DNA of 64,000 nucleotides from contig OX485808.1 of NCBI GenBank assembly GCA_950295325.1, positions 17,628,527 through 17,692,526 of the forward strand. The letters are read 5' to 3'. Of this stretch, positions 10,437 through 40,735 are shown one piece after another. The position numbers and the translations under genes are program-made. The notes under the pieces were generated by a model, which saw nothing but the letters and a program-made list of their open reading frames with translations, did no database searches and was not told where the DNA came from. How positions within the stretch are numbered: position 1 is the first letter of the stretch; each line of letters starts with the position of its first letter. Source of the DNA: Polytrichum commune. Taxonomy: Eukaryota; Streptophyta; Polytrichopsida; Polytrichales; Polytrichaceae.

Positions 10437-11075
10437 TGGAGAGAGGGAATTATCGTATCCAAAAGTACCTCTCACACATCCAACATAAAAACCTTGAAAT
10501 AGTATGCAGCCTGAAGGTTCCTAATTGGGAAAGCAACCTTCGGGTTGCATACTATAACATTGCTTTCCCAATTAGTGAGGGAGGGGTAATAGTGCGTGTG
10601 GGAGTTCAATGATGTGATACTAAATTTCTTTACGCTATGACATTAGTGCCATCAAAAAACCTAGGAAGCATTGTTCATCTCAACAATATTCCCTAAAAAT
10701 ACTATTCATTGAAAGTACCGACACTTTTCATCCTAGTACTATTCACTAACAAGCATGTGTTTGCATATGACTTTTATTTTATTTTATTTTTATCACTCTT
10801 CAAGCACATTAGAGCACACACTAGTCTTCTCGAAATATATGGTAAATGAGCTTGTGTGCATGAATTTAGAATCACTCAATGAAAAAATTCAGCCCACACT
10901 AATTTTGAGACGTGACAAAATAGTGCATGTTTCGAGATTCAGTACCGCACGTAGTAATTGCGATAATCAACGTAGTTTTGAAAGTATGCTTGAGGTCATT
11001 TGAGATGAAGCAACCAATAGGAGGTCAAGTTTTGATGTTGGATGGATGAGAGGTACGCTCGTATATACAGAAAGT
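10437..11075. mobile_element. MITE family A, copy 3, split by a family B element
   Basis: The left half (10437-10519) matches the left half of the copy at 45287-45495, including 'GAGAGGGAATTATCGTAT' and 'CCAACATAAAAACC'. The right half (about 10991-11075) carries 'GATGTTGGATGGATGAGAGG' and 'TACGCTCGTATATAC'. Between them sits a repeat family B element (10568-10985). At the left junction are two interleaved inverted repeats, described as a finding. Confidence 0.6.
10568..10985. mobile_element. Repeat family B, copy 1 (about 400 bp, MITE-like)
   Basis: Matches 23888-24295 along its length: 'CTAGGAAGCATTGTTCATC', 'AAAATACTATTCAT', 'ATATGGTAAATGAGC'-like and 'AAAATAGTGCATGTTT' all recur in the same order. 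The start 'CCCAATTAGTGAGGGAGG' resembles the reverse complement of the far end of copy 2 ('CCCAATTAGTGCGTGG'), which suggests short terminal inverted repeats. No coding capacity. Confidence 0.6.
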
Positions 11076-31769: not shown

Positions 31770-32748
31770 CACATTCACAATAATTCTTTCATCAGTTTTG
31801 TGAAAGAAACCTGAATGACACCACATAGTAGGTTTCTAGGTTGAAGAACTAGATAAATCAAGTAGACAAGTGTTCTGGAAAGCGGCAAAGCTATGGAAGC
31901 TCAGAAACCTATTGGCCATTTGTGATCCCTCCATTGAACTGAGGTGTAATTTATGTACTATTTGAGATGAACTTACAATGACTTCCATGCATTATCAGCA
32001 AGAAAATGCGACAGAATCTTGTCAACACCATACTTCAACGCTATATTGACTTCAACGCTATATTAAAATCCCTAAAAACCCCAAAATTCCCAAAACTTGA
32101 AATTTCGTATTTTAAAATCCAGATTTTAAGCATTGGTGGAGAATATATCATTGACGTGAATTACAAGTTTGTGAGCTCATAGAAGCTGTTGACAACACCT
32201 TGTAAGTAGGTCTCATTATGGTGCTCATCTAACTTAATACTCAGTATTTGGTCTGAATCATTAGTGTCTGGTTGGTGCAATTTTGTCAGTCATCTATACT
32301 CGAGAGACAGCTACCTTATTCCCAATAATGAGGGCATTCTTACTACTCGGCTGTGCAGGTGCAAGTTTTCAGGAATCATCACCAACTAACTGTCAGTTCT
32401 TTGAGGCTTGAGCTTTGATTGCAAAAGAAGATAACGTAAGTATGAGAAGTATCAAATTTATGGATTCATTGCTAATGAGCCTTGATTCGGGCCTCAAATG
32501 TTCGGCCCCATTTAAAGTTTCGTATCGAAATTCCTATACCTAACCCCAATCAATGGGCCTTGGAGGCAAGAAAATAAAATCCCAGTTCTCATAAGTATCT
32601 GGCTCTGATTTAGTTCAAACTTTGCCGGTTATTGCATAATGACAAGCATCCATGCATCGGGGCTCGTGAAATCTTTCTATCTGCGTGAGGGAGGCCTTGA
32701 TGATGGCAAAGTGATCAATACGAAGTTTCAAAAGATTGGAGGCTAAAA
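31770..32748. other. 3' flank of the metalloprotease gene, no gene
   Basis: The first few hundred bases are probably 3' untranslated sequence; I cannot place the polyadenylation site. Nothing else recognised. Confidence 0.4.
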
Positions 32749-32932
32749 TATTCTACACAGCATCCCAAGAAATTATATGGGTGAACCTCATTACTGACTT
32801 ACTACACCAGAGTGAAAGCCTCGCATTATTAGGTGGTAAGTATTCTACACAGCATCCCAAGAAATTATATGGGTGAACCTCATTACTGACTTACTACACC
32901 AGAGTGAAAGCCTCGCATTATTAGGTGGTAAG
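32749..32932. repeat. Perfect 92-bp tandem duplication
   Basis: 32749-32840 and 32841-32932 are identical base for base as I read them, starting 'TATTCTACACAGCATCCCAA' and ending 'TTATTAGGTGGTAAG'. Identity in otherwise drifting DNA suggests a recent duplication or an assembly artefact. No coding frame involved. Confidence 0.9.
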
Positions 32933-35107: not shown

Positions 35108-37645
35108 ATTTCTATTCAAAGGCATTGGTCATTTGGAGTGAGATCCCAAGTCCGTAATTGTACTAAGGTACCATAGTACCGATTCCCTTTGGTTCCAATT
35201 GTGCCGGAATGTAATGGAATGTTCGAGTGCGACTTTATGAGGTCTGTCTACTTGTTTGTGGTAGTGGCACATGAAAATGCATGCAAACTTATTTTTAGAA
35301 TGTTGAATTTATGGGTCAATCAAAGAGCATGTGGTCCAATATGTATCAACATCTCGTGTCAACAACGCACATGTTCAATGTAAACAAAAACATGTGATAT
35401 CAAATTCCCTTTGTGGTTGTTTTGAAATTTTGCAGGGATGGATGGTGAGAGGAAATTGTTCCATACAAACATACCTCTCATTCATCTGACAACAACAACA
35501 TAAAATGGTATGTAGCATGGAGAATTATTTTTCTTGGTTAAACTGACACCAAACATAGTTTCAAAGGTCAAAATTGAGACAAAGAGCAGTTAAACTTTGA
35601 ATGGTCATTGCACCCAACTAGCTAAGAGTTTGAATGGGATAATTCTTAGCGTATACTTGTGGAATGGTACCGAGAAGCTCTACAAAATGGAGTGTTATGT
35701 TTTGGTTAAATTGATTTTGGCAAAAAGATATCATCATTTAAAGGAACTAAGGGTGTTTCTTGAAGGTAGGTCTTGGTTGTGAGCACCACCAAGTTACAAG
35801 GTACGTACTTGCTTCAAAGAGATAAAGTCACTTGACGTACACCTAGAGTACATTGCTAGGAAGAGAGATGACACCCACCGTAGGCCAGTACATTGCTACC
35901 CTACATAAGCCCCTCTATTCAAACCCAAATACACGACGCCCCCCGCCCAAAAAAAAACACACACACACACAAGGACCTTACTACCTATTTGCAGGTTTCA
36001 TCCCTCACATACTATTACTAAGCTTTGTGTGAGGAAATTCCACCGATGCACTCAAAAGGGGAGCATTATCCTAGCATTTGAGGAAGAAATCCCAACATGC
36101 CCTCCAAATCTACCTAATATGTTAAGGGATCCTTTTGTGCTCAAAACCACTTGCTACAAACCCTAAACTATATCGTATTTACAGAAAATGTAGAAAGGTT
36201 CAGTGTTGAGTAGTGTGATGCAAAAATACCACAATATACACAAAAAAATATTAAACCTTTGTTGTTCGATACACCTCGGACCGTATACTAAACCTTCAAG
36301 CACAATAACAATATAGAACTACAAAACTAATTGGTCACTCAAAATGATATCCTACTTTAATATGTACCTAGATGCACTAGAATCATCATATGTCACTCTT
36401 TGATTTAGATGCACTCGTGATGAAATGAGGACAAAACGTCATATGCTCACCTTCACATTGTTACCTATATGAGATGTACGTGACATTTGCTTTGAGGTGC
36501 TTAAGAACTCACCTTCTTCAACGCCAAAACTTGCTTCGATTTCCACATAGATTTTGAGTGAGTCTCAAGCAATGATAATTTGTTGAGAGCCGAGCCACGA
36601 AGCATTCCATGGTGCTTACAATACACACTTATGATCAAATCATGGACCTTGGATGCACGGTCCTTAGAGAAAAAGCTAGTTGCCATGGAAGCCCTTATGG
36701 TCACCTCGGATTCAAAGCAAATGTTGTAGACTTGAGTGGTCAAGCTTGTACACCTATAGCAAGACCTAAAGGTTGCATTGACCATCACTATCACGTAGTC
36801 GTTCGCTTTCCTCTTTCTTTTGGACATTAGTGTGGCCGTTGGTTTCAAAAGTGGCTCAAAACAATAGTATAGAAAACTCTTAGTGCTTATCCATTAAAGG
36901 ACGCATGGCTTGAATATATGGCCGTATACGCAATTTTTATACAGGCCTCACCAAGTTCATAGATTGTAGTTTATAAAATTTTGGGTTTGAACCTTGCTTT
37001 ATAGTTTCTTATGCCAAGGAAAAATTAAAGGAAGCTCATGAGTCTTGATATTTATGATTAAAATATAACGTATGTATTTGTATTCAAGAGTACCCATAAC
37101 ATGGATTTGAACTTAACTCCTCAATAATATCAAGATTTTTAACTGATTAAAAGTGTATTTGCATAACAAGTTGATTACGAGTAGGATCATTAGGCTGAAT
37201 ATCGTATTTAGTGTCATAAGGTATTTTATGCCATTGTGGTCACTTTTGTAATGGCACTTCTTATGAATATGCTTACAAATATTGTCATCTCAATTTACAT
37301 TTGGTTCATTCACTTTTGGTATATTTTTCATCCTATCATTTATGTTATGAAGCACTATCACAAATGCTAGAAGTTTAGATGAAAAATCACTTAGCAGGTG
37401 ACGATAATCGCAACATTGTAAACCTATAATGTCCAATTTTTCTTACAAGGAATGATGATTAATGTTAGGTTCACATTTAGTGTTGGTGACACTGCATGGG
37501 CACTTTATAATTAGTGTTGAGCAAGAAAAATAGAATTGGTGACACTAAAATACAATATTCAATGTGCTCACATAGTTAACTAGAACTAGAAGTATGGAGC
37601 TCAAATACATGTTTTTGGTGCATAGAGGAACCTAGACTGGGCTTC
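35108..37645. other. Gene-free stretch
   Basis: No supportable gene. 35430-35525 holds a partial MITE A left end ('GAGAGGAAATTGTTCCATAC' and 'ATACCTCTCATTCATCTG'). There is a (CA)n tract at about 35957-35970. Open frames at 34886-35176 (overlapping the SINE), 35189-35383, 35597-35782 and 36501-36848 (minus) show no domain. Confidence 0.45.
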
Positions 37646-38500
37646 TCAAATGCTCGAAACACAATATTCATTAAAATGAGAGTTTTCCAGTGAATTGAGA
37701 GTACATAAAGCAAACTATTAATCCAAGAATGAAATGAAAACCACTGGAAAGTTGTAGAGTACAAGTAAAAAAGTAACATTTGATTTTCCGCCGTAAATTC
37801 CGCTGAAGTTTCCATTAAAATGAGAGTATGTTAAGGTGGGAAATCGACTCATTTAGGTCGACTCAACCTAAATTGACAACATATTGTCCTCATTTAGGTC
37901 GACCCAACCTAAATTGACTAACATAATTGTCCTCATTTAGGTCGACTCGACCTAAATTGACTAACATAATTGTTCTCATTTAGGTCGACTCAACCTAAAT
38001 TGACAACATAATGTCCTCATTTAGGTAGACTAAACCTTAATTGACAAAATATTGTCCTCATTTAGGTCGACTCAACCTAAATTGACAACATAATTGTCCT
38101 CATTTAGGTCGACTCAACCTAAATTGACTAACATATTGTCCTCATTTAGGTCGACTCAACCTAAATTGACTAACATATTGTCCTCATTTAGGTCGACTCA
38201 ACCTAAATTGACTAACATAATTGTCCTCATTTAGGTCGACTCAACCTAAATTGACAACATAATGTCCTCATTTAGGTCGACTCAACCTAAATTGACAAAA
38301 TATTATCCCCATTTAGGTCGACTCAACCTAAATGAGTCGATTTCCCAACTTAACATACTCTCATTTTAATGGAAACTACACGTCTGAAGTATAATCTAGT
38401 ATTTATCAACCTAGCATGACTTTTAGGTTGATAAATGGCCAATATTATTTTGAGAGGACCCCACTCTCTCAAAATATTGAATATCGTGTTTCGAGGGTTA
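37646..38500. mobile_element. Non-autonomous element: palindromic minisatellite between nested inverted repeats
   Basis: Outer inverted repeats: 'CTCGAAACACAATATTCA' near 37652-37670 against 'TGAATATCGTGTTTCGAG' near 38478-38496. Inner inverted repeats of about 50 bp: 37809-37858 starts 'GTTTCCATTAAAATGAGAGT' and 38326-38375 ends 'ACTCTCATTTTAATGGAAAC'. Between the inner repeats sits the 12-unit, 42-bp array at 37851-38333. There is no open frame of substance. Terminal symmetry plus an internal array suggests a foldback or TIR transposon that has amplified a subterminal palindrome. No clear target duplication found. Confidence 0.7.
37851..38333. repeat. Twelve-unit minisatellite, 42-bp period, each unit a palindrome
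   Basis: Units start at 37851, 37892, 37935, 37978, 38019, 38060, 38102, 38144, 38186, 38229, 38270 and 38311, a spacing of 41-43 bp. Each unit has the stem ATTTAGGT...ACCTAAAT around CGACTCA, then TTGAC(TA)ACATAAT(T)GTCCTC. Copies are nearly identical apart from a few substitutions (unit 5 is the most diverged). No protein is encoded. Confidence 0.95.
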
Positions 38501-38958: not shown

Positions 38959-39366
38959 TATTTGTTCACCACCTCCCACCCACGGTTGCCATGGGCTAGA
39001 TCACATATTCATTCGGCTGGGCCCCGTCCCTCCCACGCCTCCTTTACTGCCCAGTTTTCCTGCCCAAACTTGCGTGAGAACTCCTACTCGTTGGGAACCA
39101 CTGTGACAATACCCGGTCAAAATTACAAATACTCAAGTTGACATCACTTTCATTATTCTCAAGTTAATTTGATGAAGTTCCTTCACATGCCAAAGGAGCT
39201 CAATGGCTTTAGTGACCGGGTATTGTCACATTGGTTCCCAATGAAGAAGAGTTCCCACACAGGTGCGGACAAGATGATTGAACAATGAAGGAGGCGTGGG
39301 AGGGTTGGGCCCCAGCCAAATGAAGATGTGATCTAGCCCGGAGCCCCATGGTTGTGTGAACATGGA

Positions 39367-39408: not shown

Positions 39409-40735
39409 CTTCCTTGCATTTTCGGCCCACTTTTCAAAGAATCAAGGGTGGTTGGTATAAGGAGGAGAACCTCCCAGAAATCGTACATTGTATGACTTAC
39501 TACATGTCCGGTTTTGTTCAGAGCTTGCTAGGATTGACCCAAAAATTGACGAAGAAGCATTTTGAAATTGTGAAGTTCAAAAGTTTGCATGCTTTTGTCC
39601 CAAGTCGATGAAGTACAACAAGGACCTTACATCCAATAATAGCACTTCCAAAAAACGAAGCACATTTGAAGACGGGAATCCGAGTATCAAGTCATTGGAT
39701 GTACAACTTTTGTGGTCCCAACATATTGTAAGACAAGCTACCCGGTTTCCTTGAAAACAAGTACAATAGAGGCGTCAATTGTGAAAGTCTTTCTTCTCTC
39801 TTCAAGAAAGACTATGATACTCTTCTCACATCTAGTAGCAACAAAATGTTGAGATGAACATGTTAAGTGAACGGTTATAACCACGTAAACCAAGGGCAAT
39901 CATGGAATTGAACGTTTTCATGCACCAACTACACTAAATAGTGTTTTTAGTGTCACCAACATCGAATGTAACCCTAACATGATTTATCATTCCTTGTAAA
40001 AAAAATGGGCATTTTAGATTTAGGATGTTGCGAAGAATGTCACTTACTAAGTGAATTTTCATCCAAATCTCAATCATCCATGACAATCTATTTCATTACG
40101 TAATTGTTAGGATGCAAATTATACCAAATTTTGTTTCGATACTTATCATGGATTCCATTCAAATATCAATCATCCGTGACGATACTTGTAAACTTATTCA
40201 TAGGAAGTGTCACTAGAATAAGTTACCAAAATGACATAATATACCATATGACACCCATATGACACTAAGTATAATAGTTAGTGTAGTCCCTTAATGGATA
40301 CGAATGGTATTTGTGACAAAGGAATGTCTTCCCATTAATTATGCAATCATAACAATGTTGCCCTAGACCAAATGTATCTATATTCATTTTGTTATAAGAG
40401 CCCTAGTGGTGATCACAGTCATGGGAACATTCCTAATATATGAAAAGTACTCGGATGTGATTTGATATTCATCTTGAACTATACTAGTAATAATATATTT
40501 GGGCGATCTTGCCCATTTTGTATAATTTTTTTTTGTAAAAATTAGTCAAGAAAGACAAATATCCCATTTTAGATTTTTGAGGTATGTAATTTTTGAAAAT
40601 TTGCTACAAACGTTTACATCGCCATAAACTTAACACCCCTTCCCCACCCCTTCCCCACCCCCCCCCCCCCCAAAAAAAAGAAAAAAACATTCATGTGTTT
40701 TTGTGTGGGGCTTAGCAATGCATTGCTTAGAGCCG
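39409..40735. other. Gene-free spacer
   Basis: No gene recognised. A C run with a flanking A run occurs at about 40656-40687. Nothing else visible. Confidence 0.4.

Follow-up and report, generated by a model that had tools for sequence, protein, structure and literature searches.

Tandem arrays within MITE-like elements are already known, as the original prediction for the present locus suspected. Tetris, a foldback element of Drosophila virilis, is non-autonomous and carries variable internal tandem repeats inside a frame of inverted repeats; these repeats of ~220 bp form part of its terminal inverted repeats and are also found as kilobase satellite-like arrays (PMC4079207). Galileo, a member of the P superfamily, likewise has internally repetitive inverted repeats (PMC3688188). 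The tandem repeats in its long inverted repeats hold extra transposase-binding sites, which were proposed to aid end recognition (PMC3688188, PMC4079207). BrickBuilt of Porphyromonas gingivalis is a MITE built around a short-unit minisatellite with predicted stem-loops, and its copies have 1 to 22.8 units (PMC4596501). Tandem repeats are also carried by MITEs of Xenopus (Xstir, miDNA4), Donax and Lepidoptera (PMC9659126, PMC4596501).

The locus described here lies in a window of 64,000 nucleotides of Polytrichum commune DNA, the whole stretch that was analysed, and further copies were sought in the genome that the window comes from (407.8 Mb in 64 contigs). The reading we favour, with a probability of about 0.8, is a non-autonomous MITE-like DNA transposon with an internal palindromic minisatellite, whose left inner repeat was made by fold-back copying before a burst. 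The copy in the window occupies 37658-38490 (833 bp), where 37646-38500 had been given originally, and has the target duplication TCGA on each side. Its parts, in window positions, are the following.

37654..37657, no strand: target-site duplication, left copy (TCGA)
37658..37670, plus strand: left terminal inverted repeat, AACACAATATTCA
37671..37804, plus strand: left subterminal arm, non-coding and different from the right one
37805..37850, plus strand: left inner inverted repeat, 46 bp, probably derived
37851..38333, plus strand: array of 12 palindromic units at 41-43 bp spacing, core ATTTAGGTCGACTCAACCTAAAT
38334..38379, minus strand: right inner inverted repeat, 46 bp, probable template of the left one
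38380..38477, plus strand: right subterminal arm, non-coding
38478..38490, minus strand: right terminal inverted repeat, reading AACACGATATTCA on that strand
38491..38494, no strand: target-site duplication, right copy (TCGA)

The twelve regularly spaced units of the original prediction were borne out: allowing up to three mismatches, the core pattern is matched 12 times in the window, where 100 shuffles give an expectation of 0.00. Each unit consists of a 23-bp core, which is able to form a hairpin, and a linker, which also folds into a weak hairpin. The predicted foldability of the units holds as well, since a stretch of two cores folds with z = -4.9 and none of 200 shuffles folds equally well. 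The array is framed, as predicted, by inner inverted repeats of 46 bp, whose arms differ by 2 mismatches in the window copy; the outer 29 bp of this repeat have 2 matches, both exact, against 0.00 expected (100 shuffles). The outer inverted pair is real and is the true end of the element, AACACRATATTCA. In the window copy it has 13 bp, 12/13 identical, with weaker similarity out to 25 bp, and it had originally seemed longer because the TCGA target duplication is itself palindromic. The long inverted repeat is thus an internal one with the units between its arms, while the terminal repeats have just 13 bp. No open reading frame of at least 120 aa (stop to stop) overlaps 37658-38490. Around the inner repeat no symmetrically placed target duplication was found, short chance matches aside; the motif CTGAAG occurs near both of its ends in asymmetric positions.

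Several other repeats were seen in the window. An inverted repeat of 127 nt (38993-39119 / 39213-39339, 81% complementary, 93 nt apart) lies just downstream and is possibly another MITE-like or foldback element. Another repeat has two inverted copies flanking the element (37211-37493 / 39949-40254), with the ends GTGTCA and GGTGACACT, and a 92-bp tandem duplication (32746-32837 / 32838-32929, 99% identical) is apparently recent. Two 13-mers beside the element that resemble its terminal repeat (37549, plus strand, and 37196, minus strand; one mismatch each) were taken as chance matches. The window also encodes a fragment of an aluminium-activated malate transporter and a glycosyl hydrolase family 17 protein.

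A search of the genome with the 855-bp query, in which 40 of 289 candidates were scored, gave at least 101 element matches. The long ones start at query base 8-13 and end at 845-853, and the others are partial because the array differs between copies. The left subterminal arm alone has at least 40 matches at 98-100% identity (40 scored among 277 first-look candidates). The terminal 16-mer occurs 419 times against 4 times for its reversed control, although at least 3 of the 419 belong to an unrelated retroelement. The left junction of the derived form was found 244 times with up to three mismatches (control 0), which together with 7 junctions of the ancestral type gives ~250 copies genome-wide. 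Locus L061 holds two of them within 5.6 kb. The 39 loci fetched with flanks (L009-L047) are the best matches to the 12-unit query, and further copies came from the listing of termini. In the resulting set of 60 copies L061 is counted as two, and L025 and L037 are left out as one or both ends were not recognised.

An exact 4-bp target duplication adjoining AACAC/GTGTT is present in 53 of the 60 copies; six more agree in three of four bases and one has none. The first copy set gave a similar picture, with an exact 4-bp duplication in 34/38 copies and target matches of 5, 6, 7 or 8 bp in 0/38. The target sites are A+T-rich, without a single consensus. The original prediction had named target duplications at empty sites as a check, and for two copies uninterrupted paralogous sites, 76-79% identical, agree with a simple insertion that duplicated 4 bp (L054 against window positions 10551-10651, and L019 against L006). 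The alignment of the candidate empty sites for L050 and L021 is ambiguous at the junction. With dispersed copies, 4-bp target duplications, and a variable number of units in an array that travels along, the view of the locus as a mobile element is supported.

The copies are similar to one another, with a median divergence from the consensus of 2.3% and a maximum of 4.3% (59 copies); the window copy stands at 3.1%. The tree of the 59 copies is star-like, its terminal branches summing to 1.15 and its internal ones to 0.13. Such a tree and such low divergence look as they would after a burst. An apparently inverted array in L030 was rejected, the whole element there being in the opposite orientation, and divergence was computed with L030 turned to element orientation. 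Trees and divergences omit L035, which carries an insertion: its left arm contains ~295 bp of nested sequence with perfect 16-bp inverted ends, ACTCGGGGGGTTCACT (by eye), flanked by a repeated target of 6-7 bp, perhaps another small transposon family. Variant termini, AACCTTATATTC, are found at both ends of L093 and at the left end of L099; L093 has the target duplication CAAC, and both ends of this old copy deviate alike from the common AACAC form.

The element has the marks of a MITE in its terminal inverted repeats at a fixed boundary, in a target duplication of fixed length (4 bp, 53/60 exact) and in a high copy number (244 + 7 junctions) with no coding capacity. Searches with three terminal patterns (100 of the 419 places being listed for the main one) revealed no autonomous partner, and mobilisation and superfamily are therefore inferred. 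Unpaired ends read inward (on contig C1, on early C2 and on a few others) led back to the same element in 16 of 20 short stretches. A scripted check of 27 ends on C1 revealed no facing ends 1.2-15 kb apart. The variant end AACCTTATATTCA gave 42 hits against 28 for its reversed control, and its single pair is L093 rather than a new element; the variant end AACACRATATTCAS gave 47 hits against 23, with no facing pair by eye and no new element. As a candidate partner end L075 proved to be a match of 17 bp only, and L074, L081 and L083 led to a retroelement. The copies of this retroelement (L088, L089 and L090) are related, ~78-96% identical in blocks, and have reverse-transcriptase-like frames; it is probably a LINE, and its 16-17 bp match to the element terminus was taken as chance.

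Helitrons have neither target duplications nor terminal inverted repeats, and a Helitron was rejected as the element has both. The target lengths are 2-3 bp for CACTA, 8 for hAT, 8-11 for Mutator, 3 for PIF/Harbinger and 2 for Tc1/mariner, and the 4-bp duplication excludes these five, the superfamilies that are common in plants. Four-bp target duplications are made by Sola1 and Chapaev-like elements.

The number of units differs between copies. Among 37 copies picked by their ends alone (both ends exact among the terminus matches listed on C1 and part of C2; lengths 455-833 bp) it ranges from 3 to 12 with a median of 6. Units in these copies were derived from length by a formula that agrees with the counted units in 57/60 copies, and the 37 are less biased than L009-L047, whose unit numbers are biased towards 12. 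The range is 3-19 in the 60 copies, and the largest array seen, in L037, has 23. Neither the 60-copy nor the 37-copy set contains a derived copy of less than three units, although the number varies above that. The unit number does not correlate with divergence (rho 0.12, P 0.38, 59 copies); nearest relatives are slightly closer in unit number than chance (3.2 vs 4.3, P 0.035, 59 copies).

Core variants are clustered by copy: 82 pairs of like variants fall in the same copy against 27 expected, the maximum of 1000 permutations being 55 (L030 excluded). One variant recurs five units apart in L016, and in L028 recurrence is at one, three or four units. At either edge one linker prevails, at the first position in 34/60 and at the last in 33/60 copies, while the middle is reshuffled. 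As variants cluster within copies and recur at unit steps, blocks of units were probably gained and lost locally, through unequal exchange or slippage. Among 567 units the CpG of the core is the most variable part, its two bases showing 44 and 40 variants against 33 for the next position and no more than 13 for any other, which suggests methylation. In a plain comparison the arms of the unit are at least as variable as the non-CpG positions of the loop, so nothing in the variation shows selection for the hairpin. The idea that all hairpins sit on one face of the DNA found no support beyond what a spacing of ~42 bp gives by itself. The commonest spacing is 41 bp (351/518). Over 42 copies of 8 or more units the phase vector, taken at 10.5 bp per turn, averages 0.54, against 0.27 for random spacing and 0.90 in the window copy; spacings near 42 yield such values without any further constraint.

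The exact 28-bp unit occurs 758 times in the genome (control 0). The 100 places listed first lie on C1 up to 60.3 Mb and fall into 33 clusters, of which 29 are no more than 1.2 kb from an exact terminus. The remaining 4 (L091, L092, L093 and L037) are recognised as element copies by their arms, their ends being mutated or interrupted. All 33 clusters thus lie in or beside element copies, so that among these 100 of the 758 units the arrays do not have the character of satellite DNA. The proposal that the element builds its own satellite found no support in the same material, where no free array was seen among these first 100 of 758 exact units. Neither a free genome-wide unit nor flanks occurring only here, either of which had been named as evidence against the prediction, appeared in the material examined.

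A search with the interior of L093 revealed seven copies, L093 included, that are without the left inner repeat, and a pattern from this interior occurs seven times at up to three mismatches (control 0). In place of that repeat the seven copies have divergent palindromes (e.g., TTCAGGTCGACTCGACCTGAA), which occupy 101-105 bp in the five asymmetric copies that could be measured cleanly, and then 2 to 10 standard units followed by the right inner arm. The copies with the most diverged arms are L094 (identical with L093), L099 and L100; all three belong to this type, and in two of them the standard units number just 2. The other four have young arms and 5-10 units. The three longest branches of the ancestral type measure 0.07-0.27 against a median of 0.012 for derived copies. 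With the tree rooted on L094 and L099 by divergence, so that their basal place is an assumption, the node of all remaining copies has a support of 88. The node uniting the derived copies with the four young asymmetric ones has a support of 28; within this node the two kinds intermingle in an unsupported order. As the three most diverged copies all have the asymmetric interior, we infer that this interior is ancestral and that inverted copying of the right flank, before the burst, gave rise to the left inner repeat. The consensus inner arms are a perfect inverted repeat (46/46), and the doubled CCGCCGTA at the consensus left junction is a plausible trace of rejoining. The outer arms are asymmetric in 60/60 copies by whole-arm scoring, which also cleared four copies flagged as symmetric by a motif that resembles the inner repeat. 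Private changes common to both inner arms number 3 against 2.3 expected (P ~0.4, 53 copies), so there is no sign that copying from arm to arm would have continued.

It may be asked whether the left inner repeat arose instead by recombination between two oppositely oriented copies, which also yields inverted repeats. With ~250 copies two may be near neighbours, as in L061, and the proposal deserves weight even if it is unlikely; the inversion is confined to the inner 46 bp between outer arms that are asymmetric throughout, and a second switch back, at the left arm, would be needed. Rather lower still stands the possibility that the asymmetric interior is the derived state, a few copies having lost the left inner repeat. 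Divergence guided the choice of the root, and four of the seven asymmetric copies are young-armed and placed, without support, among derived ones, as a loss would predict. It is decidedly improbable in view of the three most diverged copies, all asymmetric, and of the same divergent palindromic segment in all seven, for which one loss spanning old and young copies is the less simple account.

The nesting of two inverted pairs, with CTGAAG near both inner ends, could be taken to mean that the inner palindrome and its array are an independent foldback element inserted into an outer MITE. This is very improbable, given that CTGAAG is asymmetrically placed and that the right inner arm and the units occur in ancestral-type copies without the left arm. 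Moreover, among 175 inner-repeat matches of at least 30 bp in 109 sequences none is without an element arm within 1.5 kb, a weak test as these sequences had been selected as element copies. The nested pairs are most probably not two elements: the outer pair is the terminus, and the most diverged copies lack the inner one. An ordinary minisatellite with flanks that merely resemble a transposon would also show tandem units and a clustering of variants within copies, and is refuted by dispersed copies with fixed termini and 4-bp duplications in 53/60.

Observed in the copies are their dispersal, target duplications and fixed terminus, the variable number of units, the clustered variants and the two kinds of interior; the fold-back reading adds a proposed course of events. 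On this reading an old element with an asymmetric interior and few palindromic units, moved in trans by a separate transposase, would have multiplied the 42-bp unit at its right. An end arising in a left unit during repair or replication may then have annealed in inverted orientation to the last unit, which is possible because the unit arms read ACCTAAAT on both strands. From there 46 bp of the right flank would have been copied and the strand joined again to the left arm, with the inverted copy replacing ~104 bp of divergent units. Template switching by fold-back would thus have run through the palindromic unit. The symmetric interior would then have spread in the burst, its unit number continuing to change via unequal exchange or slippage. 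Fold-back inversions are known for chromosomes (PMC7467729, PMC3907307). As proposed here, the cases described there involve a fold-back inverted duplication, with single-strand hairpins in the yeast paper; they concern chromosomal rearrangements, whereas the mechanism is borrowed here for the interior of a transposon (PMC7467729, PMC3907307). 

By analogy with Galileo, the array units could serve as extra transposase-binding sites, a role that would fit the lower limit of three units seen among derived copies in the two sets. It is a bolder and rather doubtful thought that the symmetrisation by fold-back, together with palindromes acting as such sites, set off the burst, and that AACAC termini with 4-bp duplications may mark a superfamily undescribed in plants.

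In comparison with the described systems, the element differs from Tetris in its palindromes of 41-43 bp, in its one central array and in that no free satellite was seen among the units listed (PMC4079207). For Galileo the transposase is known and binding sites were located by footprinting and sequence (PMC3688188). BrickBuilt is bacterial and, unlike the present element, has 23-bp units without spacers; the passages on it mention neither an ancestral asymmetric form nor an inner inverted repeat (PMC4596501). The MITEs of Xenopus, Donax and Lepidoptera differ in units, termini and hosts, and a palindromic unit within a derived inner repeat is not described for them in the passages concerned (PMC9659126, PMC4596501). 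In the parts of the literature covered, no earlier account was noticed of palindromic units arrayed inside a derived inner inverted repeat, with an asymmetric form as the ancestor. MITEs with internal tandem arrays being known, it is the order of events that is new. The asymmetric diverged copies and the symmetric young ones are likely a before-and-after series in one genome, which would show how inner inverted repeats and minisatellites arise within transposons, and with ~250 close copies of 3 to 23 units it can be measured how fast and in what way units are gained and lost. Apart from this series and the turnover of its units, the element is a further example of a MITE that carries a tandem array inside.
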